Assembly (NCBI RefSeq): GCF_001439805.1
Contig: NZ_JYLK01000005.1
Coordinates: forward strand, 62,001-126,000
Direction: 5' to 3'
Length of the DNA: 64,000 nt
Source of the DNA: Pseudomonas trivialis
GTDB lineage: Bacteria; Pseudomonadota; Gammaproteobacteria; Pseudomonadales; Pseudomonadaceae
Position numbers and translations under genes: made by a program
Notes under the pieces: generated by a model
What the model was told of the DNA's origin: nothing
The model's database searches: none
Seen by the model: only the letters and a program-made list of their open reading frames with translations
Part shown: positions 4,160 to 32,914 of the stretch, in pieces
How positions within the stretch are numbered: the stretch's first letter is position 1
How the letters are laid out: every line of letters starts with the position of its first letter

Positions 4160-5377
<1,218 letters not shown>

Positions 5378-5395
5378 GTGTTCGAGCTGATCTGA

Positions 5396-5427
5396 AAAAG
5401 GCCCCTTGTTCGAGGGGTCTTTTTTTG
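5396..5427 (+). terminator. Intrinsic terminator of argG
   Basis: A CCCCT / AGGGG stem extended by flanking pairs, with a short loop, is followed by seven T, 20-50 bp after the argG stop. Confidence 0.85.
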
Positions 5428-12035: not shown

Positions 12036-12043
12036 CAGCCCTG

Positions 12044-12176
12044 TGTCCACGGAATGACACGGCCATCAAGGAACGGTGGTTTGAAGGAACGTCGCAGGAT
12101 GCGATTCATCAGGACGATGAAAAAGGAATACAGGGACAGGGAAGAAATGTGGGCGGGTCATACCGCCCCTTTTTTT
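12044..12176 (+). ncRNA. rsmZ: RsmZ-like regulatory RNA that titrates RsmA/RsmE
   Basis: The transcript begins TGTCCACGGAATGACA, a short 5' hairpin presenting GGA, and carries eight GGA motifs (near 12051, 12070, 12081, 12092, 12106, 12124, 12134 and 12140) before an intrinsic terminator. The middle portion (GATGCGATTCATCAGGACGATG) closely resembles the RsmZ RNA I know from P. protegens. Family role: the GacS/GacA system induces the RNA, which sequesters the translational repressors RsmA/RsmE and so derepresses secondary metabolism and exoproducts. A GacA box and promoter precede it and fdxA lies beyond it, as in other species, where rsmZ lies between rpoS and fdxA. An open frame across it (11969-12193) is a chance reading. 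Confidence 0.9.
12150..12176 (+). terminator. Intrinsic terminator of the rsmZ-like RNA
   Basis: The stem GGGCGG / CCGCCC, with loop GTCATA, is followed by seven T. This is the typical end of Rsm RNAs. Confidence 0.9.
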
Positions 12177-17360: not shown

Positions 17361-17441
17361 GTATCACGATTCCGCTATAACGCACAAAATATGCAAATCA
17401 GCATTTGCCAAGCGCCAGATCTCCCGGCACTATCTGCCGTT

Positions 17442-18176
17442 ATGCAAAAACGCAACGTTTCAATCGTCCTTAAAGAGCTGCTGGACCGCGACCGGATCTC
17501 CCCCACGGAGCTTCACCGGCGCACCGGTGTGCCTCAATCCACCCTGTCCCGAATCCTCAGCGGCAAGATCGTTGACCCGTCGGACAAGCACATCTCCCGC
17601 ATCGCCGAGTACTTTCGCGTCAGCACCGATCAGTTGCGCGGACGCGCGGCCGTTGGCGCTCCGCGGGACGAAGAGCGCGACCCGATGCATTCTGAACTCA
17701 AGGACATAAGCCTGTGGGACGACGACACCCCCGTGAATGACGACGAGGTGTCGATCCCTTTTCTGCGTGAGGTTGAATTGGCTGCTGGATCAGGAAGATT
17801 CGTCATCGAGGAAAGCGAGAAGGCCAGCCTGCGGTTCGGCAAGCGCAGCCTGCGGCATAACGGTGTGCAATTTGATCAGGCCAAGTGTGTGACGGTGCGT
17901 GGCAACAGCATGTTGCCGGTGTTGCGTGACGGCGCCACGGTCGGGGTAAATGCAGGCAAGAGCGGCATTGGCGATATCGTTGACGGCGACCTGTATGCAA
18001 TCAATCACAACGGGCAATTGCGGGTTAAACAGCTCTATCGCCTGCCTTCCGGGATTCGCCTGCGCAGCTTCAATCGCGATGAGCACCCGGACGAGGACTA
18101 CAGCTTCCAGGATATTCAGGACGAGCAGATCAGCATCCTCGGTCATGTGTTCTGGTGGGGCATGTACGCTCGCTAA
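17442..18176 (+). CDS. Tailocin repressor, XRE helix-turn-helix plus LexA/S24 autoprotease (PrtR-like)
   Basis: 244 residues from the ATG at 17442; an in-frame ATG 17 codons earlier (17391) is possible but overlaps an operator-like sequence. The helix-turn-helix PTELHRRTGVPQSTLSRILSG is N-terminal. The S24 peptidase domain keeps the Ser nucleophile in GNSMLP (S156), the Lys base in RVKQL (K196) and an Ala-Gly cleavage site (A115-G116, in LAAGSG). Family knowledge: RecA-stimulated self-cleavage after DNA damage inactivates such repressors and turns on pyocin or tailocin genes. No PrtN-like activator is present, so direct repression of the holin-side promoter is inferred. An intrinsic terminator follows. 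Confidence 0.88.
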   Translation: MQKRNVSIVLKELLDRDRISPTELHRRTGVPQSTLSRILSGKIVDPSDKHISRIAEYFRVSTDQLRGRAAVGAPRDEERDPMHSELKDISLWDDDTPVNDDEVSIPFLREVELAAGSGRFVIEESEKASLRFGKRSLRHNGVQFDQAKCVTVRGNSMLPVLRDGATVGVNAGKSGIGDIVDGDLYAINHNGQLRVKQLYRLPSGIRLRSFNRDEHPDEDYSFQDIQDEQISILGHVFWWGMYAR

Positions 18177-18192
18177 CCTTCTTCTGTAAGAC

Positions 18193-18220
18193 AAAACCTG
18201 CCAACGAGCAGGTTTTTTTT
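18193..18220 (+). terminator. Intrinsic terminator of the repressor gene
   Basis: AACCTGC / GCAGGTT with loop CAACGA, followed by eight T, lies 17 bp after the repressor stop. It separates repressor transcription from the tailocin operon. Confidence 0.88.
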
Positions 18221-18262
18221 CGCCTGTTAAACGGCTCAACCCCCAGTCCGGCCTGGCTGAAA

Positions 18263-18330
18263 ATGCATTCGTGCATTTCATCAAGGGAAATAAATGCATT
18301 TATGCATTGACTGTATATGCATACATGCAT
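18263..18330. promoter_or_regulatory. Three tandem ATGCAT-N2-ATGCAT operator-like dyads
   Basis: Three 14-bp near-perfect dyads occur at 18263-18276 (ATGCATTCGTGCAT), 18294-18307 (ATGCATTTATGCAT) and 18317-18330 (ATGCATACATGCAT). They start 31 and 23 bp apart, so they lie on about the same helix face for the first pair. The second touches the -35 and the third fills the spacer of the promoter at 18307-18335. They are the obvious operators for the S24 repressor encoded just upstream; this assignment is inference. Confidence 0.75.
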
Positions 18331-18335
18331 ATTCT
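18307..18335 (+). promoter_or_regulatory. Main tailocin promoter
   Basis: TTGACT (18307-18312) and TATTCT (18330-18335) are separated by 17 bp, giving a predicted start near 18342. Operator-like dyads overlap the -35 and the spacer, so bound repressor would block RNA polymerase. Confidence 0.7.
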
Positions 18336-18341
18336 TCACCT

Positions 18342-18696
18342 CAAGCCAGCCAACAAGGTCTGGTGGAGGCGGCAAGGATGCCGCCAGGGAAGACAGGGAA
18401 GGCACGCAACATCGGCAAGGATGCCATCGAAGCGATGGCAGGGAAGCCAGGCAACACCGGCAAGGATGCCGACGCTCTTTAGGGGTACCGCTTCAAAAAC
18501 AGGCAGCGATGAACCGGCCTTAACGGTTCAGAGGGTTGGCAACTGGCCCGGGTGTGCAGCGTAAAGCACCAGAAGCAGTTATCCGGCAGACAGGGATCGT
18601 GGTCGGAAAAACATTGAGGGAAGGACCGTACCGCGCCAGTAGCGCCGAACGTCCGCGGACAGCATTACTGAAAAGCCCGGGCAACCGGGCTTTTTG
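18342..18696 (+). ncRNA. Tailocin leader RNA with tandem CAAGGAUG hairpins, candidate RsmA/RsmE-binding RNA
   Basis: From the promoter at 18307 to a terminator at 18671-18695 there is no credible gene but a structured repeat. GGCAAGGATGCC occurs at 18371, 18414 and 18459 (spacing 43 and 45 nt), each a short stem presenting AAGGAT in the loop; the first extends to a 6-bp GGCGGC/GCCGCC stem. AGGGAAG segments lie between the units. CAAGGAUG is the core of the known CsrA/RsmA recognition sequence. Seven GGA occur in the first 110 nt and about twelve overall. It could be a free small RNA ended by the terminator, or a 5' leader of the holin operon, whose ribosome site also contains AGGAGG. Function is inferred; no homologue is known to me. 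Confidence 0.55.
18671..18695 (+). terminator. Intrinsic terminator or attenuator before the holin gene
   Basis: AAGCCCGG / CCGGGCTT with loop GCAA, followed by TTTTT, lies 70 bp before the holin start and downstream of the main promoter. Unless it is read through, it would stop most transcripts before the lysis and tail genes, so antitermination or attenuation is possible. Confidence 0.75.
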
Positions 18697-18765
18697 GAAT
18701 GCCTACCTATCGAACTATTTGTAAATGAAAAACGGACTATCCAGTGCTCAGCCAGGAGGCGTGAC

Positions 18766-19104
18766 ATGACAAACGAACAACAAGCGTTAGCGGAAATGCC
18801 TATCTGGCTGGTCATCATATTGGCGGTGATCGGCGGGGTATCCGGCGAAATGTGGCGTGCCGACAAGGAAGGCGCCCGTGGCTGGTCGCTGATTCGGCGC
18901 CTGGCGCTGCGCTCCGGGGCTTGCATGGTCTGCGGCGTTTCAGCCCTGATGCTGTGTTACGCCGCCGGCATGTCGATCTGGACGGCCGGTGCCATTGGCT
19001 GCCTGACCGCCATGGCCGGCGCTGATGCCGCCATCGGGCTCTACGAGCGCTGGGCGGCCAAACGTATCGGGGTCAATGAAGGCCCGCGCCAGGATCCGCG
19101 TTAA
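18766..19104 (+). CDS. Phage holin
   Basis: 112 residues with hydrophobic segments at about 11-28 (PIWLVIILAVIGGVSG), 46-66 and 70-85 and a charged C-terminus (ERWAAKRIGVNEG), matching a class of prophage/pyocin holins (LydA-like). It would form the inner-membrane lesion that releases the endolysin encoded at 30125. A strong AGGAGG ribosome site lies 8 nt upstream of the ATG at 18766. It is the first gene of the tailocin operon, away from the other lysis genes, as is usual in fluorescent Pseudomonas tailocins. Confidence 0.8.
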   Translation: MTNEQQALAEMPIWLVIILAVIGGVSGEMWRADKEGARGWSLIRRLALRSGACMVCGVSALMLCYAAGMSIWTAGAIGCLTAMAGADAAIGLYERWAAKRIGVNEGPRQDPR

Positions 19105-19126
19105 TTGCTGCAAGGAAGCCACTGAC

Positions 19127-19642
19127 ATGACGCTCATCGAAAAACCCTCCCAATTGCCGCAAGCCATCGGCCAGGCGCTGCACGCCGCCTTCCCCGACCT
19201 GAAAGTCGGCAGCCATCAGGACTTTCAGGAGGGCGGCGCAAACACCGGCGTGCAGGTCACGGTCGAGGGCAATGGCCCCGGCATCCGCTCGCCCGAAGGG
19301 CGCAAGGCGCACGCCCTGGCCCTTTCACTCAAGGCCATGGTTGCTCCGGGTGCCTTGCCGTTCGATGCCTGCGACCTGGCCAGCCAACTGATGGATCTGG
19401 TACTGGACAACCGATGGGGGCTGCCCCAGGCACAGTGTGATTTGCCGACGAACATCGTTGCCGCTCCATCTTCTCGGACCGGTGCAGCAACGGACTACGA
19501 CACTTGGGCTGTTTCCTTCACCCAAACCCTCTACATCGGGCCGGTGCTGCTCAACGACCCTACAGGCCAGCCCCTGTTTGCCCGCACCTGGGAAGTCACC
19601 AACATCAATGACCCTGACCAATACAAGCCACTGGCGGAGTAA
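19127..19642 (+). CDS. Putative tail completion/terminator-like protein
   Basis: 171 residues, soluble, with no signal peptide. I do not recognise a family with certainty. The pattern of an N-terminal helix (LPQAIGQALHAAFP), an alternating beta middle and a C-terminal WAVSFTQTLYIG strand resembles Mu gp37-like or tail-terminator proteins, and it lies immediately before the baseplate V gene (3-bp gap). The start at 19127 has AAGGAAG upstream. A role in ending the tail tube is inference from position and shape. Confidence 0.55.
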   Translation: MTLIEKPSQLPQAIGQALHAAFPDLKVGSHQDFQEGGANTGVQVTVEGNGPGIRSPEGRKAHALALSLKAMVAPGALPFDACDLASQLMDLVLDNRWGLPQAQCDLPTNIVAAPSSRTGAATDYDTWAVSFTQTLYIGPVLLNDPTGQPLFARTWEVTNINDPDQYKPLAE

Positions 19643-19645
19643 CTC

Positions 19646-20257
19646 ATGTTCGACGCGCTCTTACGCATGCAGCTGGGGCCGATTGTCGAGCGCCTGGCAG
19701 AAATGGAAAGCCAGCTCGAAGACCTGTATCGACGTGCCGACAGTTTCTGCCGAATCGGCGTTTGCCAGCAGGTCGACGCCGCCGCCAATACCTGCAAGGT
19801 CAGCCATGGCGATCTGCTCACGCCGGCTATCCGCTTTTTCAATCCCAGTGCCGGTGCGCAAACCGAAACGCGCATTCCGTCGGTGGGTGAGCAGTGCCTG
19901 TTGCTCAACTACGGCGGCGGTGAGGGGGGCGCGCAGTCCGTGGCCTTGTTCGGCCTCAACAGCAGTTTGTTTCCGCCAGTGTCCAGCGTGGCGTCGTTAA
20001 CCCGGCGCCGTCATCAGGACGGTACGCAGAGCGACTACGACGATGCCAGCCACACGTTCAACTGGGTCAACGGCCCGACCACCTTTACCGGCTCGCGCGA
20101 ACAGATCGAGGCCAGGGTCGGTGCCACCAGCCTGATCCTCAACGCCCAGGGCATCACCCTGCAAATCGGCGGCACCGCGTTGTTGCTCGACGCCGGCGGT
20201 GCGCATTTCAGCGGCCCGGTGGTGGACCACCAGGGGCGCCTCATCAGCCCCCGATAA
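19646..20257 (+). CDS. Baseplate spike protein V
   Basis: 203 residues. After an N-terminal helix, the gpV/gp45 OB-fold carries the hallmark PAIRFFNPSAGAQTETRIPSVGEQ block, followed by a beta-helical needle-like C-terminus (SREQIEARVGATSLILNAQGITLQIGG). In P2-type contractile tails this trimer forms the membrane-piercing spike under the baseplate. It is followed in order by W, J and I, the standard P2-like baseplate gene order. Confidence 0.88.
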   Translation: MFDALLRMQLGPIVERLAEMESQLEDLYRRADSFCRIGVCQQVDAAANTCKVSHGDLLTPAIRFFNPSAGAQTETRIPSVGEQCLLLNYGGGEGGAQSVALFGLNSSLFPPVSSVASLTRRRHQDGTQSDYDDASHTFNWVNGPTTFTGSREQIEARVGATSLILNAQGITLQIGGTALLLDAGGAHFSGPVVDHQGRLISPR

Positions 20258-20266
20258 GGACATCCC

Positions 20267-20599
20267 ATGATCGGTATCGACCGAAACAGCGGGGCAGCCG
20301 TCGATGACTGGCTGCAATTCGTGCAGCGCGCCACCCGAGCGCTCACCACTCCCTTGGGCACTCGCCAGAAGCGTCCGTTGTACGGCTCGCGGGTGCCGCA
20401 ACTGCTGGGCCAGAACCTTGGCGATGACCTGCTGATTCTTGCGCAGAGCCACGCCGCCCAGGCGTTCTATAACGCACAGAACGGCATCGGCGACTTTCAA
20501 CCCCAGGTCATCGTCGCCACTCGCCAGGGGGCCGGCTTGCTGCTGCGGTTCTCCGGCACCTGGAAAAATCGCCAACAAACCTTCGAGGTCGTGACATGA
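20267..20599 (+). CDS. Baseplate wedge protein W (gp25-like)
   Basis: 110 residues of the GPW/gp25 family, recognised by TPLGTRQKRPLYGSRVPQLL and the C-terminal beta strands. It is a small wedge protein that anchors the first sheath ring in contractile tails. Its stop overlaps the J start (ATGA), so translation is coupled. Confidence 0.88.
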   Translation: MIGIDRNSGAAVDDWLQFVQRATRALTTPLGTRQKRPLYGSRVPQLLGQNLGDDLLILAQSHAAQAFYNAQNGIGDFQPQVIVATRQGAGLLLRFSGTWKNRQQTFEVVT

Positions 20600-21591
20600 G
20601 CATGCTGATCCCAGGCCAGAACCAGCTGGCGGAACCGGCCATCATTGCGGTGGACGAGTTCGAACCCTTGCTGGCCGAATTCAAGGCGTTCGTGGTGGAT
20701 TATGTTGCCACCCGCGCGCCGCAAAGCGCGGCCAAACTCAAGGTCAGCCTCGACAACGAAAGCGAACTGCTGACCCTGGCCCTGGAAGCCTTTTGCGTGC
20801 GTCTGCAAGCCCATGAGCGCAAATACAACGCCCGCATCAAGCAGATGCTGGCGTGGTGGGCCACCGGCAGCAATTTGGATGCACGCCTGGCCGATATGGG
20901 CCTGGAACGTCAGGTGCTGGACCCCGGCGACCCGGCCGCTTTCCCGCCGGTGCCGCCGACCCTGGAAAGCGACGACGACGCCAGGCTGCGCTACTACCTC
21001 GCTCCCCACGCCCCGGCCGCCGGCTCGCGCATGCAGTACCGCCGCGAAGTGTTCACCCTCGGCGAACGCCCTGCGGTGAATGTGCAGAGCGCGACGCCGG
21101 GCGTGGTCACCGTCACGTATACCTTCGACCCGGATGGTTATGCGGTGCGGGTCAAGGATGGCAATGGGCGGCGAACCGCACCGGGTGAAGTCATGGTCAC
21201 CGTCCTGGCGCGAGAGGGCGATGGCACGCCGTCTGCGGACTTGCTGGACGGCGTGCGACGGCATTTCGCACGGCCGGATGTACGTCCGGAAACCGACCTG
21301 GTCAGTGTGCAAGGCGCGCACATCCTGCCGTACAAAATCCGTGTGGTCGCCAAGATCAACGCCGGACCGGATTCCGGACTCACCCAGGTCGCCGCGCAAA
21401 AGCTGCTGCAGGAGTACGCCGAGTCCTGCCATCGCCTGGAAGGGCGGGTGGACCCGAGCTGGATCGACTATGCCATCCACAGTGCTGGCGCGGCGCAACT
21501 GCAGATCCTTGAACCGCTGGAGCCGATTGTCAGCTCGGCGTTCGAGGCTCCGTATTGCACGGGTGTCGAGGTGGAGGTGCTCACGCTATGA
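20596..21591 (+). CDS. Baseplate protein J
   Basis: 331 residues, the P2 gpJ / T4 gp6-like wedge protein that builds the baseplate ring. Family features include the N-terminal IIAVDEFEPLLAEFKAFVVDYV segment, the YNARIKQMLAWWATGSNLDARLADMGLER helix region and the central strand block with the TVLAREGDGTPS loop. The start at 20596 overlaps the end of W and its stop overlaps the start of I, both as ATGA. Confidence 0.9.
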   Translation: MSMLIPGQNQLAEPAIIAVDEFEPLLAEFKAFVVDYVATRAPQSAAKLKVSLDNESELLTLALEAFCVRLQAHERKYNARIKQMLAWWATGSNLDARLADMGLERQVLDPGDPAAFPPVPPTLESDDDARLRYYLAPHAPAAGSRMQYRREVFTLGERPAVNVQSATPGVVTVTYTFDPDGYAVRVKDGNGRRTAPGEVMVTVLAREGDGTPSADLLDGVRRHFARPDVRPETDLVSVQGAHILPYKIRVVAKINAGPDSGLTQVAAQKLLQEYAESCHRLEGRVDPSWIDYAIHSAGAAQLQILEPLEPIVSSAFEAPYCTGVEVEVLTL

Positions 21592-22226
21592 GTGAACCCA
21601 AAGCGAGTGTGTTGCCGGCCAACAGTTCACCGCTGGAAAAGGCACTGGATTTGGCGTTCGGGGTATTGCTCGACCGGGTCATGCCGCCGTTTCCAGCGCT
21701 GATGAACCCGCTGCAGACCCCGAGCGAGTTTCTTCCTTATCTGGCTGCCGACCGTGGAGTCAGCGAATGGGATGCCGACGCCAGCGAGTCTGAAAAGCGC
21801 CTCACCGTGGCCCTGTCCTGGCAGATCCAGCGTCAGGCTGGCACCCCCAAGGCATTGAGCCATGCGGTGGAGTCACTGGGTTTTACCCCCGACATCCGTG
21901 CCTGGTATCAGCAACAACCCATCGGCGCGCCATATACCTTCGACGTGCAGGCGATCATTGGGCGCAGTTGGTCCAGTGGCGATCACAATCGGCTGATCCG
22001 CCGCATCAACGCCGCGAAAAGCGAGCGGGACCAGGCCACGATCACCCTTGTTCACGAGACCGAAGGTCAGCTTGCGCTCACCCAGGTTCTCGATGCCCCG
22101 TTAAGCGACGGGGAGTTGTATCTGGACGGCGCGTTGCCGGAATTGGCGCTGACTGCCCGGCTTAACAGTACCGGGCTCGCCCGGCACTACACCATTAACG
22201 ACTACGACCTCAGGGCGCAGCCATGA
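21588..22226 (+). CDS. Tail protein I
   Basis: 212 residues, P2 gpI family. It contains FLPYLAADRGVSEWDADASE and the WQIQRQAGTPKALSHAVESLGF region diagnostic of the family. It connects the baseplate wedge with the tail fiber base. The ATG at 21588 lies inside the J stop overlap; an apparent upstream extension is rejected. Confidence 0.88.
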   Translation: MSEPKASVLPANSSPLEKALDLAFGVLLDRVMPPFPALMNPLQTPSEFLPYLAADRGVSEWDADASESEKRLTVALSWQIQRQAGTPKALSHAVESLGFTPDIRAWYQQQPIGAPYTFDVQAIIGRSWSSGDHNRLIRRINAAKSERDQATITLVHETEGQLALTQVLDAPLSDGELYLDGALPELALTARLNSTGLARHYTINDYDLRAQP

Positions 22227-22753
22227 CAGATGACATCACGCGCCTGGTGCGCTTCACCTCCAAGGGATTGGATGAAGTGCTGCAGGCAAAGAACCAGGGC
22301 TTGAAAGGCGAAATCACCCACATCGGCGCCGGCACCGGCCGCTACAACCCCGACGGCACTGAAGTTGCCCTGCGCGATGAGCGCCAGCGGGTCGCCATTG
22401 TGGATTACGAAGACCTGGGCGACCACCAGCTCAGGATGGCCGCGCTGTTTGACGGCGACGGCGAGTATGAAATTGGCGAGTTCGGATTTTATCTCGCCAG
22501 TGGAACCTTGCTGGCGGTGTATGCCGTGGCCGGGAAGTTGCTGACGTATAAAGCGGCGGCGGCGCGGGTGCTGCAAAAATTTACGTTGGATGTTTCGCCG
22601 TTGCCGGCGGACAGCGTGACGATTGTGGTGGGGAGTGACAACTTGAATTTGTTGTTGGCTGAGGAGATCGCGATCATGGCCGCCGCGTCAGTAGGCAATA
22701 TGTCCCGGCACGTGGATTTAATGCTCAGGGTCAGGCAACTGGAAGCAAAGTGA
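22223..22753 (+). CDS. Tail fiber base protein (DUF3751 N-terminal module only)
   Basis: 176 residues, the baseplate-attachment domain of P2-type tail fibers (TDDITRLVRFTSKGLDEVLQAK and a THIGAGTGRYNPDGTE block), ending shortly after the module at HVDLMLRVRQLEAK. Full tailocin fibers are usually several hundred residues longer, so the shaft and tip are missing from this frame. The next frame opens at once (GTGA overlap at 22750) and may supply the distal part. ATGA coupling to gene I. Confidence 0.82.
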   Translation: MTDDITRLVRFTSKGLDEVLQAKNQGLKGEITHIGAGTGRYNPDGTEVALRDERQRVAIVDYEDLGDHQLRMAALFDGDGEYEIGEFGFYLASGTLLAVYAVAGKLLTYKAAAARVLQKFTLDVSPLPADSVTIVVGSDNLNLLLAEEIAIMAAASVGNMSRHVDLMLRVRQLEAK

Positions 22754-23583
22754 GGGCACTTGCAAAAGTGCTGGAAAGACTAATTGACAGGGAGTTGATG
22801 ATGGGAATTGAAGCGACTATCACGAAAGTTGTAGATGCGTGTAACAAACTTACCGATGAGGTAACCAACCAGATCGGCAAAATCGATGCGCGTGTAGAGG
22901 CTGCGCAAGCGCAGTTTTCTGCCTGGCGAGCCACTGTGCAAGCCAAGGATATCAATGGCCGTGCGTCCTACACTCAGGAAATTGATTTGACCGGACTGTC
23001 CACCGACATTTTTTACCCTGTCTGGTGGCGTATGCCGGGTAATGAGCAAGGCGTTTCGGAGATTATCATCTCCAGAAATTACGCTCAAAATCAGGAGTTG
23101 AATCCGTTCAAAAATAATTTTGACACTCACGTTGCCGGCTTGAATCTTCAGATGGAAGGCTGCGGTATTCCCTGGAATGGAGATGCAAACTTTCTGACTA
23201 TAAAGCGCATTTCCCAAACTTATCGAGAAACGGCGCGTAAAGCGCAGTTCGGCATGTTTTGTATTGTTCGCCCCGTCACCGGTCTTAAGCCGATCTGGCT
23301 GAACCTTACGCCGGGTGCTTTTACTACTTCGCCGCTGGAGTCCGGTTGCTACCTGCGTGGAGGGTTGACTTATCTCGTCACTAAAAGTTTCCAGGCGCCT
23401 GTGAACTTCAGCCGTGTGGATGAAGAAGTGGAGCTGAGTCGATCGGTTACGCCAGAGTATGAAATTTCCTGGAAGGTCAAACCGTTCGCGATGACGGCTT
23501 CTGAGTTGGGTGCAACCTATCCGGAAAGTAACACCGCCTACACGTTGGATAACGATAAGCGCTATGCAGTGAAAGGAGTATGA
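22750..23583 (+). CDS. Probable separate distal tail fiber / receptor-binding protein
   Basis: 277 residues from a GTG that overlaps the previous stop (GTGA); ATG codons at 22798 and 22801 with AGGGAG just upstream are alternative starts. It begins with a coiled-coil-like segment (VVDACNKLTDEVTNQIGKIDARVEAAQ) and continues as a beta-rich domain with many Trp, Tyr and Asn residues. No family is recognised. Its base composition is lower in GC than the rest of the cluster, as expected for a swapped host-range cassette. Its place between the fiber base and the assembly chaperone suggests the adhesive tip. Confidence 0.6.
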   Translation: MRALAKVLERLIDRELMMGIEATITKVVDACNKLTDEVTNQIGKIDARVEAAQAQFSAWRATVQAKDINGRASYTQEIDLTGLSTDIFYPVWWRMPGNEQGVSEIIISRNYAQNQELNPFKNNFDTHVAGLNLQMEGCGIPWNGDANFLTIKRISQTYRETARKAQFGMFCIVRPVTGLKPIWLNLTPGAFTTSPLESGCYLRGGLTYLVTKSFQAPVNFSRVDEEVELSRSVTPEYEISWKVKPFAMTASELGATYPESNTAYTLDNDKRYAVKGV

Positions 23584-23585
23584 CC

Positions 23586-23888
23586 ATGGCTCGCACTATC
23601 AAAAAGCTGCTTTTGGCCTCGGGCGAAACACTTATTAACGTTCCAGCGGATCGTCCAACCTTGATTTCGCTGGGTTTCAGCGAACTTCGCGCCAACGAAC
23701 TGTGCGAGGCCGCCGAGAGCGATGCCAGACTCGAAGAGGTCATCACTGCACGTCGTACGCTGTACATGACACAGGCCGATCCTCTGTTTCTGGAGTGGCA
23801 GTACGACGAAACCCCGGAAAAGGAAAAGGCCTGGCGCGATAAAGTGGCCGAAATCAAGGCGCTCTATCCGCTGCCTGACCGTATCTGA
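23586..23888 (+). CDS. Tail fiber assembly chaperone-like protein
   Basis: 100 residues. The C-terminal DPLFLEWQYDETPEKEKAWRDKVAEIKALYPLPD segment is the mark of a phage tail assembly chaperone family. The ATG at 23586 is 8 nt after AAGGAG; an ATG at 23580 overlapping the preceding stop is too close to it. Such proteins fold the cognate fiber, so it should match the fiber cassette before it. A terminator follows. Confidence 0.75.
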   Translation: MARTIKKLLLASGETLINVPADRPTLISLGFSELRANELCEAAESDARLEEVITARRTLYMTQADPLFLEWQYDETPEKEKAWRDKVAEIKALYPLPDRI

Positions 23889-23894
23889 AACCCC

Positions 23895-23949
23895 ACCGCG
23901 AAAGCGGTTTTTTTTCGCCTCCCCAAAGCCCCTCCCGCAGGGGCTTTGG
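23895..23949 (+). terminator. Terminator after the fiber cassette plus a second hairpin
   Basis: ACCGC-GAAA-GCGGT followed by eight T (23895-23915) is a good terminator. A second perfect 10-bp stem, CCAAAGCCCC / GGGGCTTTGG (23923-23949), lacks a long T-run. Together they could lower transcription into the sheath and tube genes or process the mRNA. Confidence 0.7.
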
Positions 23950-23974
23950 CGTTTTCCACCTGGAGAATTTCACC

Positions 23975-24148
23975 ATGCCCACCCGCCAAACCTACACCGT
24001 CCTCATCCCATTCCCCATCGGAGGTGGCCACTGGTCCACCGCTGGCGAGGAGCTGGAACTGCTGGACGTCGAAGCATCCGCGCTGCGCACCGCCGGCCGT
24101 CTGGAACTGACCAGCGTCCTCAACTCCACCCCCAAGAAGGCTGAATAA
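23975..24148 (+). CDS. Small tailocin protein before the sheath gene
   Basis: 57 residues, beginning MPTRQTYTVLIPFPIGGGHW and ending STPKKAE. The TGGAGAATTTCACC before the ATG is a good ribosome site, and the stop is 2 bp before the sheath start, so it is clearly a translated member of the operon. A short reading frame at this place is common in Mu- and P2-like tail operons (gp38/DUF2635-like position). The function is unknown. Confidence 0.7.
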   Translation: MPTRQTYTVLIPFPIGGGHWSTAGEELELLDVEASALRTAGRLELTSVLNSTPKKAE

Positions 24149-24150
24149 TC

Positions 24151-25317
24151 ATGGCTGAGGTTTTGAACTTCGAGCACAACGGCATCACCGTCAACGCCAC
24201 CGAGTCCCCCGAGGCCATGGGTGGTCTGGGCGATAACGTGATCGGTCTGGTCGGCACCGCGCCGAACGCCCACGGGTCGATCCCGAAAAACGCGCCGTTC
24301 CGTATCAACAGCTTCACCACCCAGGCACTGCTGGACCCCACCGGTACTGAGTCGGGCACGCTGTTTCAAGCGGTGTACCAGATCCTCAAAGTGGTGAAGG
24401 TGCCGGTCTACGTGGTGATCGTGGAGGAGGGCGCAACCCCGGCCGACACCCTCAACAACGTGATTGGCGGCAACGAACCCGTTACCGGTCGCAAGCTGGG
24501 CCTGGCGGCCCTGAGCAGCGTCCCTGAAGACCTGACCATCATCGGCGCCCCGGGCTTCACCGGCACCAAGGCCGTGGCCAGCGAGTTTGCTGCCTTCGGC
24601 AAGCGCATCAAGGCCCGTGTGGTGCTTGATGGCAAAGACACCAGTGTGGCCGACCAGGTGACCTACAGCGGTGAACTGGGCGGTGCCGACCTCGGCTTCG
24701 ACCGCTGCCTGCTGGTGCACAACATGCCGTCGGTGTACTCCAAGGCGGCGAAGAAAAACGTGTTCCTGTCGCCATCGTCCCTGGCCATCGCCGCACTGGC
24801 CAAGGTCAAGCAGTGGGAAAGCCCGGGCAACCAGGTGACCTTCGCCGAAGACGTTTCCCGCGTGGTCGAGTACAACATCCTCGACACCTCCACCGAAGGC
24901 GACCTGCTCAACCGCTATGGCGTGAGCTACTACGCCCGCACCATCCTCGGCGGCTTCTCGCTGCTGGGTAACCGTTCCCTCACCGGCAAGTTCATCAGCT
25001 ACGTCGGCCTGGAAGACGCCATCAGCCGCAAGCTGGTCAAAGCCGGGCAAAAAGCCATGGTCAAGAACCTCACCAAGTCTTTCATGGACCAGGAGGTCAA
25101 GCGCATCAACGATTGGCTGCAAACCCTGGTGGCCGACGAAACCATTCCCGGCGGCAGCGTGTACCTGCACCCGGAATTGAACAGCGTCGAGAAGTACAAG
25201 AACGGCACCTGGTTCATCGTCATCGACTACGGCCGCTACGCGCCGAACGAACACATGGTTTATCAACTCAACGCCCGCGATGAAATCATCGAGCAGTTCC
25301 TGGAGGACGTTCTCTAA
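24151..25317 (+). CDS. Contractile tail sheath protein
   Basis: 388 residues, P2 FI-like. The N-terminal linker FEHNGITVNATESPEAMGGLGDNVIGLVGTAP is typical, as is the C-terminal conserved domain (GRYAPNEHMVYQLNARDEIIEQFLEDVL) that makes the inter-subunit mesh. The presence of a sheath makes this an R-type (contractile) rather than F-type particle. The stop TAA shares its final A with the tube ATG. Confidence 0.95.
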   Translation: MAEVLNFEHNGITVNATESPEAMGGLGDNVIGLVGTAPNAHGSIPKNAPFRINSFTTQALLDPTGTESGTLFQAVYQILKVVKVPVYVVIVEEGATPADTLNNVIGGNEPVTGRKLGLAALSSVPEDLTIIGAPGFTGTKAVASEFAAFGKRIKARVVLDGKDTSVADQVTYSGELGGADLGFDRCLLVHNMPSVYSKAAKKNVFLSPSSLAIAALAKVKQWESPGNQVTFAEDVSRVVEYNILDTSTEGDLLNRYGVSYYARTILGGFSLLGNRSLTGKFISYVGLEDAISRKLVKAGQKAMVKNLTKSFMDQEVKRINDWLQTLVADETIPGGSVYLHPELNSVEKYKNGTWFIVIDYGRYAPNEHMVYQLNARDEIIEQFLEDVL

Positions 25318-25823
25318 TGTTTACCAACCGAGTCAGACAGGCCATTGCGGCCACCCTTCAAGGCCTGCCGTTGTCCGCGACCGTTGAGGAGTTCACCCCG
25401 CCGAAGATCGAATTCGAGATGGAATCCATGTCCGGTGGCCGCTTCATTGCTGAAGAAATGGCCAAGAGCGGCAAGGTGCTCAATGCCACCTTGATCCTGC
25501 AGGGGGCCGGCCCGGAAATCATGCTGGCCCTGGGCGTACGCACGGGCGACGACATCCTGCTGAACGTGCGTGAGGCCGGCCAGGATCAGGACGGCAAGAC
25601 CTATTTCACCTACCACACGGTCGGCGGCAAGTTGAAATCCCTGGGCGAAGCCAAGCTGAAAATGGGCGAAAAGGCGCTCACCACGCTGGAGCTGTCGTGC
25701 CGCACCTACAACCGCCTGGAAAACGGCATTTCGGTGATCGACATCGACGTGCGCACCCAGAAGTTTGTGCTCAACGGCGTCGACATTCTCGGCGACGCGC
25801 GCCGCGCCGTACTGATGCCCTAA
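25317..25823 (+). CDS. Major tail tube protein
   Basis: 168 residues, P2 FII family, recognised by the partnership with the sheath and by FTPPKIEFEMESMSGGRFIAEEMAKSGKV and the strand-rich remainder. It forms the hexameric inner tube. It is coupled to the sheath by TAATG. A REP doublet lies in the gap after it. Confidence 0.92.
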   Translation: MFTNRVRQAIAATLQGLPLSATVEEFTPPKIEFEMESMSGGRFIAEEMAKSGKVLNATLILQGAGPEIMLALGVRTGDDILLNVREAGQDQDGKTYFTYHTVGGKLKSLGEAKLKMGEKALTTLELSCRTYNRLENGISVIDIDVRTQKFVLNGVDILGDARRAVLMP

Positions 25824-25853
25824 GCATTCCGGCAACCTGAAGCGCGCACGGTT

Positions 25854-25944
25854 TATGTGGGAGCTGGCTTGCCTGCGATGGCATCACCTCGGTTCAGCAA
25901 ATACACCGAGTCGCCTGCATCGCGGGCAAGCCCGGCTCCCACAT
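25854..25944. repeat. REP doublet (inverted pair)
   Basis: A left arm beginning TGTGGGAGCTGGCTTGCCTGC and a right arm ending GGGCAAGCCCGGCTCCCACA are inverted copies around a short variable centre, the form of mobile REP/REPIN elements in this genus. It lies inside the tailocin operon between the tube and gene E. Confidence 0.8.
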
Positions 25945-26005
25945 TGACCGCGCCCGGCTTCACGGTTGCGGTGCTTTTATCCCACGTTCATCAAGGAATA
26001 GCCCC

Positions 26006-26578
26006 ATGGCCTGGATGCCACCGCTGCATCGCCTGCTGTCCCCGATCACCGCCGACACCGGCGCTGCGATCGAGCAGGTGCAACTCAAACCGCTGTTCTA
26101 CGCCGCGCAAAAAGACGCGCTGGCCCGGGCCGGTGATGACGAGGACGACCAGTTTTTCGAACTGGCGAAACTTGCCACCGGCCTGTCGGAAAAAGAGCTC
26201 GACCAACTCAAGCGCCCGGACTACGTGAGCATCGCGCAATACGTGCATGAAATGTCGACTCGCCCGGCGTCGTTCTTCCTGCAAACGCACGAAGAAAGTC
26301 GCCACGACCAACCCGTCCAGTTGCTGCTGCCGCTCCATGCCGCTGGGCGCACGCTGACCGAACTGCCCCTGGAAATGCCCGCCCTGCGTGCCACCAAGGT
26401 GATGAAAAAACTCGCCACCAACAAAGAGCGCGCCGAGTTCATCACCGCTCACTGCACCGGCCTGATGATCCCTGACCTGGGCGACTTGACCGTGCCCGAC
26501 TGGACAGAACTGCAGGAGCGCATCGACGATTTTTTAAATCAACCGGCGGACTTCTTTCGCAGCGCGACATCGAAGTGA
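26006..26578 (+). CDS. Tail assembly chaperone E (zero-frame product)
   Basis: 190 residues, the phage tail assembly protein E family (ALPLEMPALRATKVMKKL region, then helices). It normally chaperones the tape measure during tail assembly. Near its 3' end the heptamer T TTT TTA (26530-26536) is in the phase required for -1 slippage, and the -1 frame stays open to 26700, giving a longer E+E' fusion. The zero-frame product stops at 26578. Confidence 0.82.
   Translation: MAWMPPLHRLLSPITADTGAAIEQVQLKPLFYAAQKDALARAGDDEDDQFFELAKLATGLSEKELDQLKRPDYVSIAQYVHEMSTRPASFFLQTHEESRHDQPVQLLLPLHAAGRTLTELPLEMPALRATKVMKKLATNKERAEFITAHCTGLMIPDLGDLTVPDWTELQERIDDFLNQPADFFRSATSK
26530..26536 (+). other. -1 programmed ribosomal frameshift signal (T TTT TTA)
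   Basis: The slippery heptamer is read as GAT TTT TTA in the E frame. P2 gene E uses T TTT TTG in the same place. After slippage the frame continues AAA TCA ACC and stays open for 54 further codons. Confidence 0.8.
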
Positions 26579-26700
26579 TCCTTGATGTGGTACCGCTGGT
26601 TTACTCGGTAACTGAAGCGGACATCCTCGATTGGGATGCCGCAAAAGCGTTGCGCCGCTACGACATCGCGATCACTCGCCTTGGCGTCAAACAGGAGTAA
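26536..26700 (+). CDS. E' extension in the -1 frame (expressed as E+E' fusion)
   Basis: 54 residues in the -1 frame after the slippery site, reading KSTGGLLSQRDIEVILDVV and ending ITRLGVKQE, stop at 26698-26700. There is no start codon of its own. The sequence looks like real protein (segment LVYSVTEADILDWDAAKALRRYDIAI), and the stop is 5 bp before the tape measure ATG, exactly where P2 E' ends relative to T. The fusion would be about 231 residues. Confidence 0.75.
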   Translation, partial: KSTGGLLSQRDIEVILDVVPLVYSVTEADILDWDAAKALRRYDIAITRLGVKQE

Positions 26701-26705
26701 GCGGG

Positions 26706-28496
26706 ATGCAGAATACCTATTCGCTCGCCTATGCCGTGGCCAGGGATGGTCAGGGCGTTTTCGGTCGCGCAGAGGGCGCCAATGATGCCGATATTGCCAG
26801 TCCAGGCGCGCTGTCAGCTCACAGTTCAGGCCAACTCGCGGGCTTGCCTGCGCTGTCCGAAACAGTGGCTGCGCTGACCAACGCGAATCTGAAGTTTGAT
26901 GAACTGGCGCAGTCGCTGGGCACCTTGCGCGAGGGTGTGGACTCGCTCGACACCGTCTTGTCATCGTTGAGAACCCTTGATCGGCAGCCTGTGCGCAGGG
27001 ATGAGCGGACAGAATCAACAACGCTGTCTGAGTCCACTTCGAGCACGTCTGTGGATCAGCGGCAAACCCGCGAGGCCCTGACGCTAGGCAGCGCGCAGAT
27101 CACTGATCTGGCCAGTGCGCTGCAGTATTCGGGCAGCAACCTGACGCTTGATAAAACAGCCCGCTCGGAACAGTCGATCAGCGTGCTGCGCGAAGCATCC
27201 AGTGCAAGCGAAACACGCTTTTCCACGACCCTGGACGCCGCACCGGTGTGGGGCGAAGCGCTGTGGTTGAAGGCCAGGACCGGCCTGACGCAGAGCGCCA
27301 ATAGCGCTGTTGAAGGTTCACCGGCTTTGGCCAGCGCGGTCAAAACGGCGCAGGCCGTGGTATCGACCACGGTGACACCGGTGATTTCCGAAGTCCTTTC
27401 AGGATTGGGAGAAACGATTAAAAGCCGGGTTGCAGGCAATGTGGTCGATGCCACCCTTGGCAGGCTCCCCGGCATTGGCAAGCTGTTCAAGGACGGCGGT
27501 TTTGATGGCGAAAAGGGCAAAGACGCGCACTGTTGCTGCGCCAGTCCACTGTCCTTCGGCGCGCCGGGTGCGCTGGGCGGATCTGCGGCGCAGATGCCCG
27601 AGAGTGTTGGCGATACGGTACGCAGGAAAGACAAGGCCAAACCCGCCGCGAACAAGAAGCGGCGCGTCGGGCTTCCGAGGCCGGGCCAACCGGTTGCGCG
27701 CCAGCCCCTGGCATTCGGCAGCGAGCAACCCCTGCAACGCCAACCTCGGGCAGCCGGCCCTGAGCAATCCGCGCAACGCCAACCACTGCATCCCGCGCCG
27801 CTTATCAGGCCAGCCCCCGCACTCAATGCAATGGGCCAGCCGCCAGTGCCGTTCGACGCGGCTCGTGTGGCCCCGCCGTCGACGCAACTTCCCGGCAATT
27901 CGCTTGCCGCCCCTGGTGCGCCGGCAGCCATCCGACCGTTGGCTCGCAGCAGCGAAAAAGGCCTGGCGGCAGGTCTGTCCGGCACGCTGGCCAGGCTGGA
28001 GTCCGGCGCTGCTCGTCGCCTGGGCCCATTGAAGTACGTCGACACGGCCATCGATGTGGTGCAGGGCTTACGCAATGGTGACGTCAATGCCGTCGGCGCC
28101 GGTTTGAGTACTGCCGGTGGCGCCTGGGCTGGCGCTTCCGCTGGCGCCGCACTTGGCACCCTGGTCTTCCCGGGTGTCGGTACCGCCATCGGCGGCGCCA
28201 TTGGCGGTTTGCTCGGCAGTGAAGCGGGCGCCTGGCTCGGGGACAAAGTGTTTGGCTCAAGCGATCGTCTGCCCGCGCCCAACGCGCTGAGCAAGGAACT
28301 CACCCGCGCAAGCACGGATAACGTCCAGGTCACACTCTCGCCGAGCATCCAGATCACCGGCGTGAACCCGGCGGACGCCCAGCAGGTGGTCAATCAGGTG
28401 ATCCAGGCCCTGCAGTTCCAATGCCTGCCGATGGTGACCGACACCCTGGGCATCCGACGCAACGCGGCACTGGCCGATCCATCAGGAGGTGATTGA
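26706..28496 (+). CDS. Tail tape measure protein
   Basis: 596 residues. The N-terminal half has helical, Ser/Thr-rich segments. The middle (about 300-410) is rich in Pro and Gln with degenerate repeats (RQPLAFGSEQ, QRQPRAAGPEQ, QRQPLHPAPL). A hydrophobic glycine-zipper stretch lies at about 455-520 (GAALGTLVFPGVGTAIGGAIG). Tape measure length sets tail length; at about 1.5 A per residue this gives roughly 90 nm. The ATG at 26706 follows the E' stop closely. A CCC cluster near residue 278 is unusual. The stop overlaps the start of gene U (TGATG). Confidence 0.82.
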   Translation: MQNTYSLAYAVARDGQGVFGRAEGANDADIASPGALSAHSSGQLAGLPALSETVAALTNANLKFDELAQSLGTLREGVDSLDTVLSSLRTLDRQPVRRDERTESTTLSESTSSTSVDQRQTREALTLGSAQITDLASALQYSGSNLTLDKTARSEQSISVLREASSASETRFSTTLDAAPVWGEALWLKARTGLTQSANSAVEGSPALASAVKTAQAVVSTTVTPVISEVLSGLGETIKSRVAGNVVDATLGRLPGIGKLFKDGGFDGEKGKDAHCCCASPLSFGAPGALGGSAAQMPESVGDTVRRKDKAKPAANKKRRVGLPRPGQPVARQPLAFGSEQPLQRQPRAAGPEQSAQRQPLHPAPLIRPAPALNAMGQPPVPFDAARVAPPSTQLPGNSLAAPGAPAAIRPLARSSEKGLAAGLSGTLARLESGAARRLGPLKYVDTAIDVVQGLRNGDVNAVGAGLSTAGGAWAGASAGAALGTLVFPGVGTAIGGAIGGLLGSEAGAWLGDKVFGSSDRLPAPNALSKELTRASTDNVQVTLSPSIQITGVNPADAQQVVNQVIQALQFQCLPMVTDTLGIRRNAALADPSGGD

Positions 28497-28879
28497 TGCG
28501 ACAACAAATGGTGCTCGGCGACTTTATATTCGGCCTGTCCCGAGGGTTCGCCTATTCCACGCTGTCCCGCGCCAGCGATGGCGGCTGGCAGGACCTGGCG
28601 ATTATCGCCAGCAAGCCGCAGTCGCGACAGAACGGCCAGAAGCTGGAAAAACTGACCTTCGGCGGTACCGCGATGTACGCCGTGGGCATGCAGCGACTGG
28701 ACGAACTGCGCGCCTTGCAGAATACCCGCGCGCCGCTGCCGCTGGTCGACGGTATCGGCCGCAATTGGGGCCTGTGGCGGATCAATTCGGTGACGGAAGC
28801 CCAAAGCAACGTGATCGATGACGGCACCGCCATGGTCATGACCTGGACTCTTGAACTGGAGGAATTCGTTAATGCGTAG
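28496..28879 (+). CDS. Tail protein U
   Basis: 127 residues, P2 gpU family, recognised by MVLGDFIFGL near the start and the FGGTAMYAVGMQRLDELRAL block. It acts at the baseplate/tail end in P2-like assembly. AGGAGGT lies 5 nt before the ATG at 28496, and the start overlaps the tape measure stop. Its 3' end overlaps gene X by 8 bp. Confidence 0.88.
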   Translation: MRQQMVLGDFIFGLSRGFAYSTLSRASDGGWQDLAIIASKPQSRQNGQKLEKLTFGGTAMYAVGMQRLDELRALQNTRAPLPLVDGIGRNWGLWRINSVTEAQSNVIDDGTAMVMTWTLELEEFVNA

Positions 28880-29084
28880 AGTGCGAAGTATTGCCGGGGA
28901 TTCGGTCAACCTGCTGCTCTACCGGGAGCTGGGCCGTTGCGACGATAGCGCGGAGGAAACGCTTTGGCGTCTGAACCCTGAGCTTGCCGAGTACGGCCCG
29001 GTGCTGCCGGCAGGCGTGTGGGTGATCGTGCCTGAACTGGCGTCGCGGCCTTCTGCCGTGCGTCCCGTTTCGGCCTGGGATTAA
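28872..29084 (+). CDS. Tail protein X (LysM-like)
   Basis: 70 residues of the P2 gpX family: a short LysM-like fold, ending in the usual GVWVIVPEL pattern. In P2-like tails it is thought to help the baseplate hub contact peptidoglycan. The start at 28872 has GGAGGAA upstream and lies within gene U. Confidence 0.85.
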   Translation: MRRVRSIAGDSVNLLLYRELGRCDDSAEETLWRLNPELAEYGPVLPAGVWVIVPELASRPSAVRPVSAWD

Positions 29085-29093
29085 GGAGGCGAC

Positions 29094-30104
29094 ATGACAC
29101 AGGGATTTACCCCCAGCGTGGAGTTTTACGGCGCCAATGCGGCGCTGCTCAATCAACGCTTGATGCATTGGAGTCACACTGATGCGGCGGGCATTGAGGC
29201 CGATCGGCTGGAACTGACCCTCAATATCGAGGGCCTGGAGGGCTTGCCCAGCCTGAGCGGCAAGATCGGCCTGCGAGTCGGTTATCAGGAGTCCGGATTG
29301 GTGGAGAAAGGCGAGTTCGTGATTACCCAAAGAACGCCGGTGCTGTTTCCCATGCGCTTGATGATCGTCGCCACTGCTGCACCTTTCAGCGTGCAGGATG
29401 CCAGTGGCTATCGTCAGCGTCGCTCTGCCAGTTACGGGCCGACCACCCTGGGCGCACTGTTTCGCCAACTGGTCAGTCGCCACGGCTATTCACCGCGCGT
29501 GGCGCCCGAGCTGGACGGGATCGCGATTGCCCACGTCGACCAGTCCAACGAAAGCGACATGGCATTCATCACCCGTTTGGCCAAGCGTTATCGTGCGGTG
29601 ACCAAGCCGATCAACGAGCTGTATGTGCTGGCGGAGGCCGGGCGGGTCAAGTCGCTTTCCGGTCAACTGTTGCCGGACGTCACGTTATCGGTGACCCGCG
29701 ACAATCGCCCCGGTGAACCGGCCTTCATCACCGCCACGCTCGACGAAAAATCGCGCTCGAAGTACATGGGCAGTCGCGCTGCCTGGTGGGATGCGGCAGC
29801 GGGCAAGCAACGTGTGGCCCAGGTTGGCGTCGCGCCGTTCAAGACACTGCGCCAGCGCTATCAGAACCAGGCCGAAGCGCAGTCCGTTGCTGAAGCGGAA
29901 TTGCGCCGTGTCGGCCGCGAGGGCCTGACATTGATGATCGATTGTCCGGGTAACCCGCTGCTGGCTGCCGAAGGTCTGTTGCTGCTGGATGAATCCTGGC
30001 CGTCGTACATGCAGGGGCGCTGGTCGATCAATAAGGTGACGCACGTGGGGGATCCGGCGACGGGCTATCGCAGTTCCATCATTGCAGGCGGTTTGTCGGC
30101 CTAG
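29094..30104 (+). CDS. Late control D / tail hub protein
   Basis: 336 residues, P2 gpD family (phage late control gene D protein), the structural hub that carries spike V. The family look is clear: TPSVEFYGANAALLNQRLMHWSHTD at the start, the YRQRRSASYGPTTLGALFRQLVSRHGY region, and the C-terminal KVTHVGDPATGYRSSIIAGG. AAGGAGG precedes the ATG. In a tailocin it functions as hub, not as a late-gene regulator. Confidence 0.9.
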   Translation: MTQGFTPSVEFYGANAALLNQRLMHWSHTDAAGIEADRLELTLNIEGLEGLPSLSGKIGLRVGYQESGLVEKGEFVITQRTPVLFPMRLMIVATAAPFSVQDASGYRQRRSASYGPTTLGALFRQLVSRHGYSPRVAPELDGIAIAHVDQSNESDMAFITRLAKRYRAVTKPINELYVLAEAGRVKSLSGQLLPDVTLSVTRDNRPGEPAFITATLDEKSRSKYMGSRAAWWDAAAGKQRVAQVGVAPFKTLRQRYQNQAEAQSVAEAELRRVGREGLTLMIDCPGNPLLAAEGLLLLDESWPSYMQGRWSINKVTHVGDPATGYRSSIIAGGLSA

Positions 30105-30124
30105 ACTTTTCCAGAGTAATAACC

Positions 30125-30682
30125 ATGGTGATATCACTCGCGCAGCTTATTAATGTCATGCCCTTGTCCCGCCCCAGAGCGGGCTTGTTTTTAACCGCGT
30201 TGAATGACGCCAGCGCCCGCTATGAGATCAATACCGCAAAACGCTGGGCGGCGTTCCTCGCACAGATCGGCCACGAGTCCGGCCAACTGCGCTATGTGCG
30301 CGAACTGGGCAGTGATCAATACCTCAGCAAATACGACACCGGTACCCTGGCCGCGCGCCTGGGCAATACGCCCCAAGCCGATGGCGACGGCCAGAAGTAT
30401 CGGGGCAGGGGCCTGATCCAGATCACCGGGCGGCGCAACTACGTGGCCTGCAGCCAGGCATTGTTCGATGATGATCGCCTGCTGCAACACCCTGAACTGC
30501 TGGAGCAGCCGCAGTGGGCCTGTGCGTCTGCGGCGTGGTTCTGGCAGAGCAATGGCCTGAACGCGCTGGCTGATACAGACCAGTTCACTGCCATCACGCG
30601 GCGCATCAATGGCGGACTTAATGGCCTGGAGGATCGTTTGCAATTATGGGCGCGGGCGAAGGCGGTGTTATGCGCTTTCTAG
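30125..30682 (+). CDS. Endolysin, glycoside hydrolase family 19
   Basis: 185 residues, chitinase-like lysozyme. The catalytic glutamate region is FLAQIGHESGQLRYV, and the substrate-binding block KYRGRGLIQITGRRNY is intact. There is no signal peptide, so export depends on the holin at 18766. It would cut peptidoglycan to release particles. It overlaps the Rz gene by 13 bp. Confidence 0.9.
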   Translation: MVISLAQLINVMPLSRPRAGLFLTALNDASARYEINTAKRWAAFLAQIGHESGQLRYVRELGSDQYLSKYDTGTLAARLGNTPQADGDGQKYRGRGLIQITGRRNYVACSQALFDDDRLLQHPELLEQPQWACASAAWFWQSNGLNALADTDQFTAITRRINGGLNGLEDRLQLWARAKAVLCAF

Positions 30683-31182: not shown

Positions 31183-31263
31183 CGTCTTGATGCACTCTGC
31201 AACTTGCATGGTTGTTCGGCTCCTGTAGGGTAGGCGAACGCCCGCCCACTTCCGGAGACGACC

Positions 31264-31764: not shown

Positions 31765-31791
31765 GCGATCTCTGATCTTTGTGGAACAATA

Positions 31792-31807: not shown

Positions 31808-31847
31808 GTGTTGGCCGCCAGGCCTTATTGATTACGTGAGGACTTTA

Positions 31848-32906: not shown

Positions 32907-32914
32907 AGCAAACG

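Follow-up and report, generated by a model that had tools for sequence, protein, structure and literature searches.

Phage HK022 antiterminates transcription without a phage protein, its put RNA acting through the zinc-binding domain of the RNA polymerase β' subunit, and King and colleagues have reportedly described further put-like RNAs. Lambda and HK022 each have two sites, one for the left and one for the right operon, and in lambda the order is cI-rex-oL-nutL-N, with CGCTCTTAA beside nutL. HK022 putL and putR are structured RNAs placed just 3' of an early promoter within a lambda-like immunity order, and put is about 70 nt long with two stem-loops (position of putL and size of put from the parts of PMC9378689 that concern these sites). 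The boxA element and the Nus factor complex are treated in passages of PMC5725501. The mutS-cinA/recA tailocins of Pseudomonas described in PMC7815802, a paper with neither "promoter" nor "leader" in its main text, share their locus, PrtR, holin and contractile tail genes with the tailocin analysed here.

Organization of the tailocin locus

The following features surround the leader in the window, by which we mean the whole 64-kb stretch of DNA analysed.

12042-12176, plus strand: host rsmZ (113.2 bits), with a GacA-type upstream site at 11854
17391-18176, plus strand: PrtR-like phage repressor (HTH_3 and Peptidase_S24; Pfam PF00717, 1.1e-18, and PF01381, 9.7e-9; PHROG transcriptional repressor, 6.4e-47), directly 5' of the leader promoter
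18307-18335, plus strand: sigma-70-type leader promoter TTGACT-N17-TATTCT inside TGCAT repeats (promoter scan; also seen in the leaders of relatives)
18311-18326, plus strand: LexA-like box CTGTATATGCATACAT, overlapping the leader promoter, 1 mismatch to CTGTATATNNATACAG
18766-19104, plus strand: holin (Phage_holin_3_5; Pfam, PHROG), first gene 3' of the leader
19127-31182, plus strand: tailocin structural and lysis operon (baseplate, fibre, sheath, tape measure, endolysin, spanin and others)

We take the stretch between the repressor and the holin gene to be the operon's 5' leader, made up of two functional parts. The original prediction covered half of this leader; the boxA and the conserved RNA that lie 3' of the GGA module had gone unnoticed. 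The operon itself is about 12 kb long. Among 20 tested ORFs of the tailocin cluster, PHROGs named neither an N-like gene nor a second regulator, PrtR being the only regulator named. A phage factor is possible in the tailocin case, since several of these ORFs are without a named function.

The TTGACT-N17-TATTCT promoter that had been proposed is present at 18307-18335, and it is the one site of its type in 17400-19600 (shuffle mean 0.8). The LexA consensus is CTGTATATNNATACAG. Three LexA-like sites, giving six strand-wise matches at up to 3 mismatches, were found in the 64-kb window, and none of 100 shuffles reached as many. A LexA-like box CTGTCTACTTATACAG with 2 mismatches stands at 31792-31807 directly before recA, as expected of an SOS gene. 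GacA-dependent promoters are of the type TGTAAG-N6-CTTACA. With up to 2 mismatches allowed, the window has a single site of this type, the one at 11854 before rsmZ, and none lies at the tailocin promoter. A LexA site also precedes the SBW25 tailocin, according to a part of PMC8544851. A simple scan gave no further promoter between the hairpin P6 (see below) and the holin gene.

A conserved structured RNA follows boxA

The 3' part of the leader contains the following elements.

18473-18481, plus strand: boxA CGCTCTTTA, the sole exact copy in the window
18499-18608, plus strand: conserved structured RNA core of about 110 nt
18510-18530, 18533-18549, 18551-18570 and 18582-18607, plus strand: helices P1, P2, P3 and P4 of the core
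18541-18544 with 18577-18580, plus strand: pseudoknot of the core
18623-18654, plus strand: probable helix P5 around GCGCCAGTAGCGC (inspection of relatives, uncounted)
18662-18702, plus strand: P6, a hairpin of 18 bp with one bulged A and, in the tailocin form, a terminator-like U5

The core is ordered AGGCAGCGAUG-P1-P2-P3-pseudoknot-P4. For its alignment, 75 copies were reduced to 27 at below 93% identity, from which L036 and the decayed L049 were then removed, L050 having been removed earlier. In the resulting 25 copies, 99.0% of the cells of 28 pairs are paired and 16 of the pairs are compensatory, the pseudoknot contributing one pair with a double change. No shuffle out of 500 was as good on any of five measures, and versions of the structure slid along the alignment were paired at 21-46%. 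The divergent members found by the covariance model are 98.3% paired with 17 of 24 pairs compensatory, in an alignment fitted to the model itself and with 13 of 500 shuffles reaching the count of pair types. The model alignment misplaced the pseudoknot of the distant members, which was hence read by eye: it is CUCCA/UGGAG in L334 and CUCC/GGAG in L412 and L413, and has three pairs only in the others.

A known Rfam family was rejected as the identity of the core, since no family matched 18499-18608 when 18180-18780 was searched on both strands at E up to 10. The core is a widely conserved structured element absent from the RNA library searched. Titles and opening lines of abstracts gave no description of this RNA in the literature covered, which takes in few subscription papers, and PMC10305613 on phage PseuP_224 names no such RNA in the part covered.

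At E 0.001, a search with the leader had matches in 130 of 199 genomes, in many cases only over about 18501-18709, 3' of the GGA module. With the covariance model, the core was found within the genus in 118 of 199 genomes at E 1e-4 and in 225 of 398 at E 0.001. The figures were 19 of 198 genomes (4 of 19 genera) for the family and 6 of 293 for the order, these six all belonging to the genus of the window. The window's own genome has a single copy. Temperate phages also carry the core, and boxA with the pseudoknotted RNA is the most widely conserved part of the leader, being found also in leaders that have no GGA array. In annotated phages the core is located between the repressor and genes that are read away from the repressor.

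The nine bases of boxA recur in the 16S rRNA leader of the host, both in its own genome (L325) and in three copies of a relative. For further counts we used 120 nonredundant loci, obtained from 202 exact-pattern sites by removing those at locus ends and near-identical neighbours; the set favours canonical members, and many related tailocins remain in it. A boxA with at most one mismatch lies within 150 nt 5' of the core in 71 of these loci, compared to 1 of 120 on the opposite strand. Because 49 of the 120 leaders have no good boxA, this element is not essential to the core RNA family. A promoter-like site occurs up to 230 nt 5' of the core in 109 of 120 loci versus 14 of 120 on the opposite strand. 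Its -35 box falls at -70 to -60 in 32 of 47 loci without boxA, and in the 62 loci with boxA it clusters near -90 (14), -125 (23) and -198 (21). Where at least 1.2 kb of upstream sequence was available (110 of the 120 loci), a PrtR/cI-type repressor gene is found within 2.5 kb upstream in 78, on the same strand in 77, and downstream in none.

The Com protein was considered as the conserved element and rejected. In P. fluorescens Q8r1-96 (L031) the annotated Com gene begins inside the leader and its coding part continues beyond it, and no Com-like ORF was seen in the ORF list of the window. The same Q8r1-96 element carries, at 452-538 on the minus strand and 5275-5880 on the plus strand, a C4 antisense RNA scoring 78.7 bits as well as group II intron fragments near tailocin-like genes.

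Comparison with put and nut sites

The promoter and repressor counts put the core where a put-like RNA would be expected, 3' of an early promoter and on the repressor side. HK022 putL and putR are likewise placed, and relative to cI and the leftward operator the core holds the place of nutL in lambda. It differs from HK022 put in having about 110 nt, four helices and a pseudoknot, often after a boxA. In having boxA CGCTCTTTA, the form found in the host rRNA leader, the tailocin leader resembles lambda nutL and the rRNA boxA; unlike in these, a large structured RNA comes after it. Membership of the put or nut sites by sequence was rejected for HK022 25000-40000 and lambda 33000-40000, in which the core model had no match at E up to 10. 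In contrast to the two sites of lambda and HK022, one strong copy was present in each of 38 virus or phage records (38/38), which had been chosen because they carry the core. A second copy for a right operon was sought in these 38 records and not found. Three weak extra matches scored 9.5-12.1 bits. Those of 12.1 bits (E about 0.2) in Medea1 (48139-48215; W04) and Aurca01 (32573-32649; W05) may be due to chance; in each of the two phages they lie some 10 kb downstream, on the same strand.

On balance, and with somewhat better than even confidence, we favour the reading that boxA and the core form a cis-acting antitermination signal and that the GGA array docks RsmA/RsmE. The observations behind it are the conserved structure, the position, the boxA, the variation within the GGA units and the loss of the core together with the operon. 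We infer antitermination and Nus binding; boxA and the core are probably a cis-acting antitermination RNA using host factors. The phage-derived signal would consist of boxA and P1-P4 of the core, followed by P5/P6. A boxA emerging behind RNA polymerase would load NusB-S10, the core would bind the elongation complex, and the polymerase could then pass P6 and later stop signals across the operon. Such action would resemble that of lambda nutL or HK022 putL, in tailocins probably without a phage protein; HK022 put needs none, and the tailocin case is perhaps alike. If this is true, the conserved antitermination leader is a new control step for the tailocin operons of plant-associated Pseudomonas, and there is a large family of RNA-based antiterminators outside the enterobacterial phages.

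The P6 hairpin

An intrinsic terminator had been proposed at the end of the leader. The sequence AAAAGCCCGGGCAACCGGGCTTTTTGG is present at 18671-18697, but a simple terminator scan does not flag it, and it is the tailocin form of a hairpin, P6, whose phage copies have no U run. A terminator was rejected as a family-wide feature of P6 for this reason. Since the U5 is found in the tailocin form and not in the phage forms, we take P6 to be part of the RNA and likely a stop signal only in tailocins. A long hairpin with a single 5' bulge lies 3' of the core in 83 of 120 loci (the bulge being A in 78 of the 83) as compared to 50 of 600 shuffles. An alignment of 26 copies, chosen for pairing from 53 distinct hairpins and equal in length, is 97.6% paired with 11 of 18 pairs compensatory, and 222 of 500 shuffles reached its count of pair types. 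An anchor-based count made without choosing for pairing, in which some anchors are plainly wrong, gave 235 of 328 paired cells in the lower stem, versus 105 of 246 and 114 of 328 when shifted.

In several phages P6 comes shortly 5' of a start codon, as it would if the core and P6 were a 5' structure that stabilizes the early mRNA or times the translation of the first gene. We regard such a role as unlikely, because the first genes differ from one locus to another (holin, Com-like, hypothetical, CsrA), the core ends more than 150 nt before the first start codon in the window, and neither the promoter-proximal position nor the boxA would be explained.

Loci without the tailocin operon

Six of the 64 loci bearing the GGA module have no tailocin structural genes (G164, G170, G602, G030, G550 and G622). 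They are arranged prtR-leader-holin-cinA-recA, in some cases with one gene, or a piece of a second, after the holin gene. In three of the six the core has been deleted or has decayed, with 80% identity in G164 and no match in G170 and G602, and in the other three it is kept at 93.0-97.3% identity. None of the remaining 58 loci has lost it (identity at least 96.3%). The one-sided Fisher value for 3 of 6 versus 0 of 58 is 4.8e-4, for a test that was prompted by two of the three losses (G164 and G170) and for loci that share ancestry. The loci L339-L368 were covered for 1.5 kb downstream, so that in these a loss of the operon farther away could have escaped notice, and one of the 58, L349, has no next tailocin gene within 1.5 kb downstream. 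As the core was lost in half of the operon-less loci and in none of the others, its upkeep appears to go with having an operon to transcribe. The distance from boxA to P6 is reduced to about 30 nt in G602 and about 100 nt in G170, in which P5 is kept. A seventh locus, G136, which has no GGA module, has lost the structural genes together with most of the core and P6. Beside cinA-recA, seven operon-less loci (L405, L404, L408, L409, L410, L411 and L406) keep PrtR, the promoter, the leader or a remnant of it, and the holin gene.

All six operon-less loci with the module keep 6-7 GGA. This survival is suggestive only, since the loci were found with a GGA query and the modules of the three core-less ones are slightly more diverged: their identity to the nearest relative is 0.95-0.96 against a median of 0.978 in the others, with 4 to 14 of 61 others being lower.

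These loci bear on a different explanation, in which the leader is chiefly a source of one or more trans-acting small RNAs. An RNA of about 360 nt would end at P6 and would act as an Rsm sponge through its GGA and/or on another host target through the core. The U5 at the end of the tailocin P6 fits such an RNA, as do the 6-7 GGA of the operon-less loci and the promoter, GGA RNA and hairpin kept by G170 and G602 after deletion of most or all of the core. In the phages, however, a P6 that lacks the U run comes after the core, with same-strand genes next, and the decay of the core in three operon-less loci fits a role in cis. Moreover, the six loci came from a GGA query and the GGA modules of the core-less three are not especially conserved. 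We consider the small-RNA explanation possible but doubtful, and retain the antitermination reading for boxA and the core.

The GGA module

The 5' part of the leader is made up as follows.

18343-18482, plus strand: GGA module with 7 GGA and four GGCA-N-GGA-N-GCC units, a candidate Rsm (CsrA) binding array
18371-18382, plus strand: unit 1, GGCAAGGATGCC
18414-18425, plus strand: unit 2, GGCAAGGATGCC
18437-18448, plus strand: unit 3, GGCAGGGAAGCC, not in the earlier list (GGCA-N-GGA-N-GCC at this place in relatives)
18459-18470, plus strand: unit 4, GGCAAGGATGCC

The site motif of Rsm/CsrA proteins is CANGGANG. The three copies of GGCAAGGATGCC in the original prediction were recovered at 18371, 18414 and 18459, spaced by 43 and 45 nt, and the count of seven GGA for the leader was confirmed. 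Over both strands of the window there are 29 matches to CANGGAYG; 3 of them fall within the 130 nt that begin at 18371, and the next best stretches of this length have 1. By a looser count, GGA in a loop of 5-7 nt with three closing pairs, the leader has 4, and because three other stretches equal it, GGA hairpins as such are not rare in the window. The leader from 18342 to 18705 folds better than its shuffles (z -3.58, 0 of 100).

A DNA search with 18340-18485 showed that the GGA array is kept in 64 of 398 genomes of the genus, which bears out the expectation that it would be conserved in related tailocins. The search had matched 67 genomes, of which G163, G169 and G698 were dropped (matches of 32-50 nt), as was a second, partial match in G098. 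Relatives with the leader include, among the matches listed, P. libanensis, P. rhodesiae, P. marginalis, P. lactis, P. poae, P. simiae and P. brenneri. A pattern scan of relatives gave at least 119 stretches, with boxA before the core in 46 of those listed. Among 69 distinct leaders, 68 or 69 have an intact GGA at five of the seven sites, and 66 and 57 at the remaining two. Conservation is no higher in the GGA columns than elsewhere in the module (mean 0.937 versus 0.957), the GGA mean being pulled down by one column that is GGA in the consensus only.

In 28 less redundant leaders, each of the four units reads GGCA-N-GGA-N-GCC, with unit 1 mostly ending in GCT. Of the 48 unit columns 8 are variable, and 6 of the 8 are N positions (hypergeometric P 5.9e-5). 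GGA is kept in 112 of 112 units, and no GGA column is variable (P 0.08 by itself). Since the variation falls mostly on N and never on GGA, the array is likely to consist of Rsm/CsrA sites, and we regard the module, from this pattern of substitutions, as a likely set of candidate docking sites for host Rsm regulators. Covarying GGA stems had also been predicted. Only 1 of 19 pairs is changed on both sides and 238 of 500 shuffles equal that; because the stems are nearly invariant, covariation neither supports nor refutes the hairpins, and we rejected it as proof of them.

The repeats could instead have arisen by chance through tandem duplication, or belong to the antitermination site as a boxB-like element. 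They stand immediately 5' of boxA, their units of 43-45 nt look duplicated, and short hairpins that contain GGA are common across the window. Against this, the units vary mostly on N and never on GGA, and some leaders have the core and boxA without the array, so that we find this origin improbable and keep to candidate Rsm sites.

The leader has several GGA in common with the decoys RsmX, RsmY and RsmZ (RF00166 clan), four of them here in CANGGANG units able to sit in hairpin loops. It differs from them in having a LexA-like box and no GacA-type site, and in being part of a tailocin leader. Membership of RsmZ (RF00166) by score was rejected, the match to 18350-18482 being weak at 22.9 bits against a gathering score of 44. 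Of 7 GGA-bearing relatives, 3 had an RF00166 match, with scores of 22.2-25.6 bits (E 0.03-0.26).

The original prediction offered a further role for the array, that RsmA/RsmE bound to the leader represses the holin in cis and Gac/Rsm thereby decides lysis. The array does lie upstream of the holin gene, and work on SBW25 ties gacS and the tailocin to plasmid cost (PMC8544851, in part). Yet 284 nt, including the core and P6, separate the end of the array from the holin start, and the Shine-Dalgarno sequence of the holin gene, CCAGGAGG, does not contain CANGGANG. The same part of PMC8544851 suggests that the gacS link could run via PFLU4242 and does not mention the leader. We consider control of the holin in cis very unlikely. 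Of the Rsm target or sponge proposed for this region, the conservation of the array and a unit variation like that of Rsm/CsrA sites stand, while covarying stems and holin control find no support.

Under the reading that we favour, the GGA module, present in one tailocin group, would dock host RsmA/RsmE. Its transcript would come from a PrtR/LexA-type (SOS) promoter and not from a GacA promoter, and it would titrate Rsm proteins, or these would modulate the leader. We infer Rsm binding and SOS control from the motif units and the LexA-like box, and on that basis an SOS-driven Rsm decoy is plausible. Through the array, SOS-induced killing may be directly connected to Gac/Rsm, the network in control of secondary metabolism.

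A more far-reaching proposal is tentative. Temperate phages of Pseudomonas might use boxA and the pseudoknotted core as an unlisted family of antiterminators that work by RNA alone, and domesticated tailocins would have kept it for transcription of the whole operon. In the P. fluorescens group it would have been fused to an SOS-driven Rsm decoy, so that one leader would, upon DNA damage, release the killing operon and free Gac/Rsm-controlled traits, and this decoy half would have been kept as a free-standing RNA after loss of the operon. We rate this as possible, with the chances leaning against it.

Two further observations concern Rsm and CsrA genes. Some 6 kb separate host rsmZ from the tailocin leader, so that an Rsm decoy driven by Gac has a possible SOS-driven counterpart close by. 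The genome encodes three homologues of CsrA, and parts of PMC7366521 describe CsrA homologues that are carried by Pseudomonas plasmids and phages. In a locus from another genus of the same family (L414, genome G787; core at 2001-2111, minus strand), an ORF for a CsrA homologue begins right after the core and P6 and matches PF02599 at 1.9e-19 over its first 39 residues, which places a CsrA under the same leader RNA.
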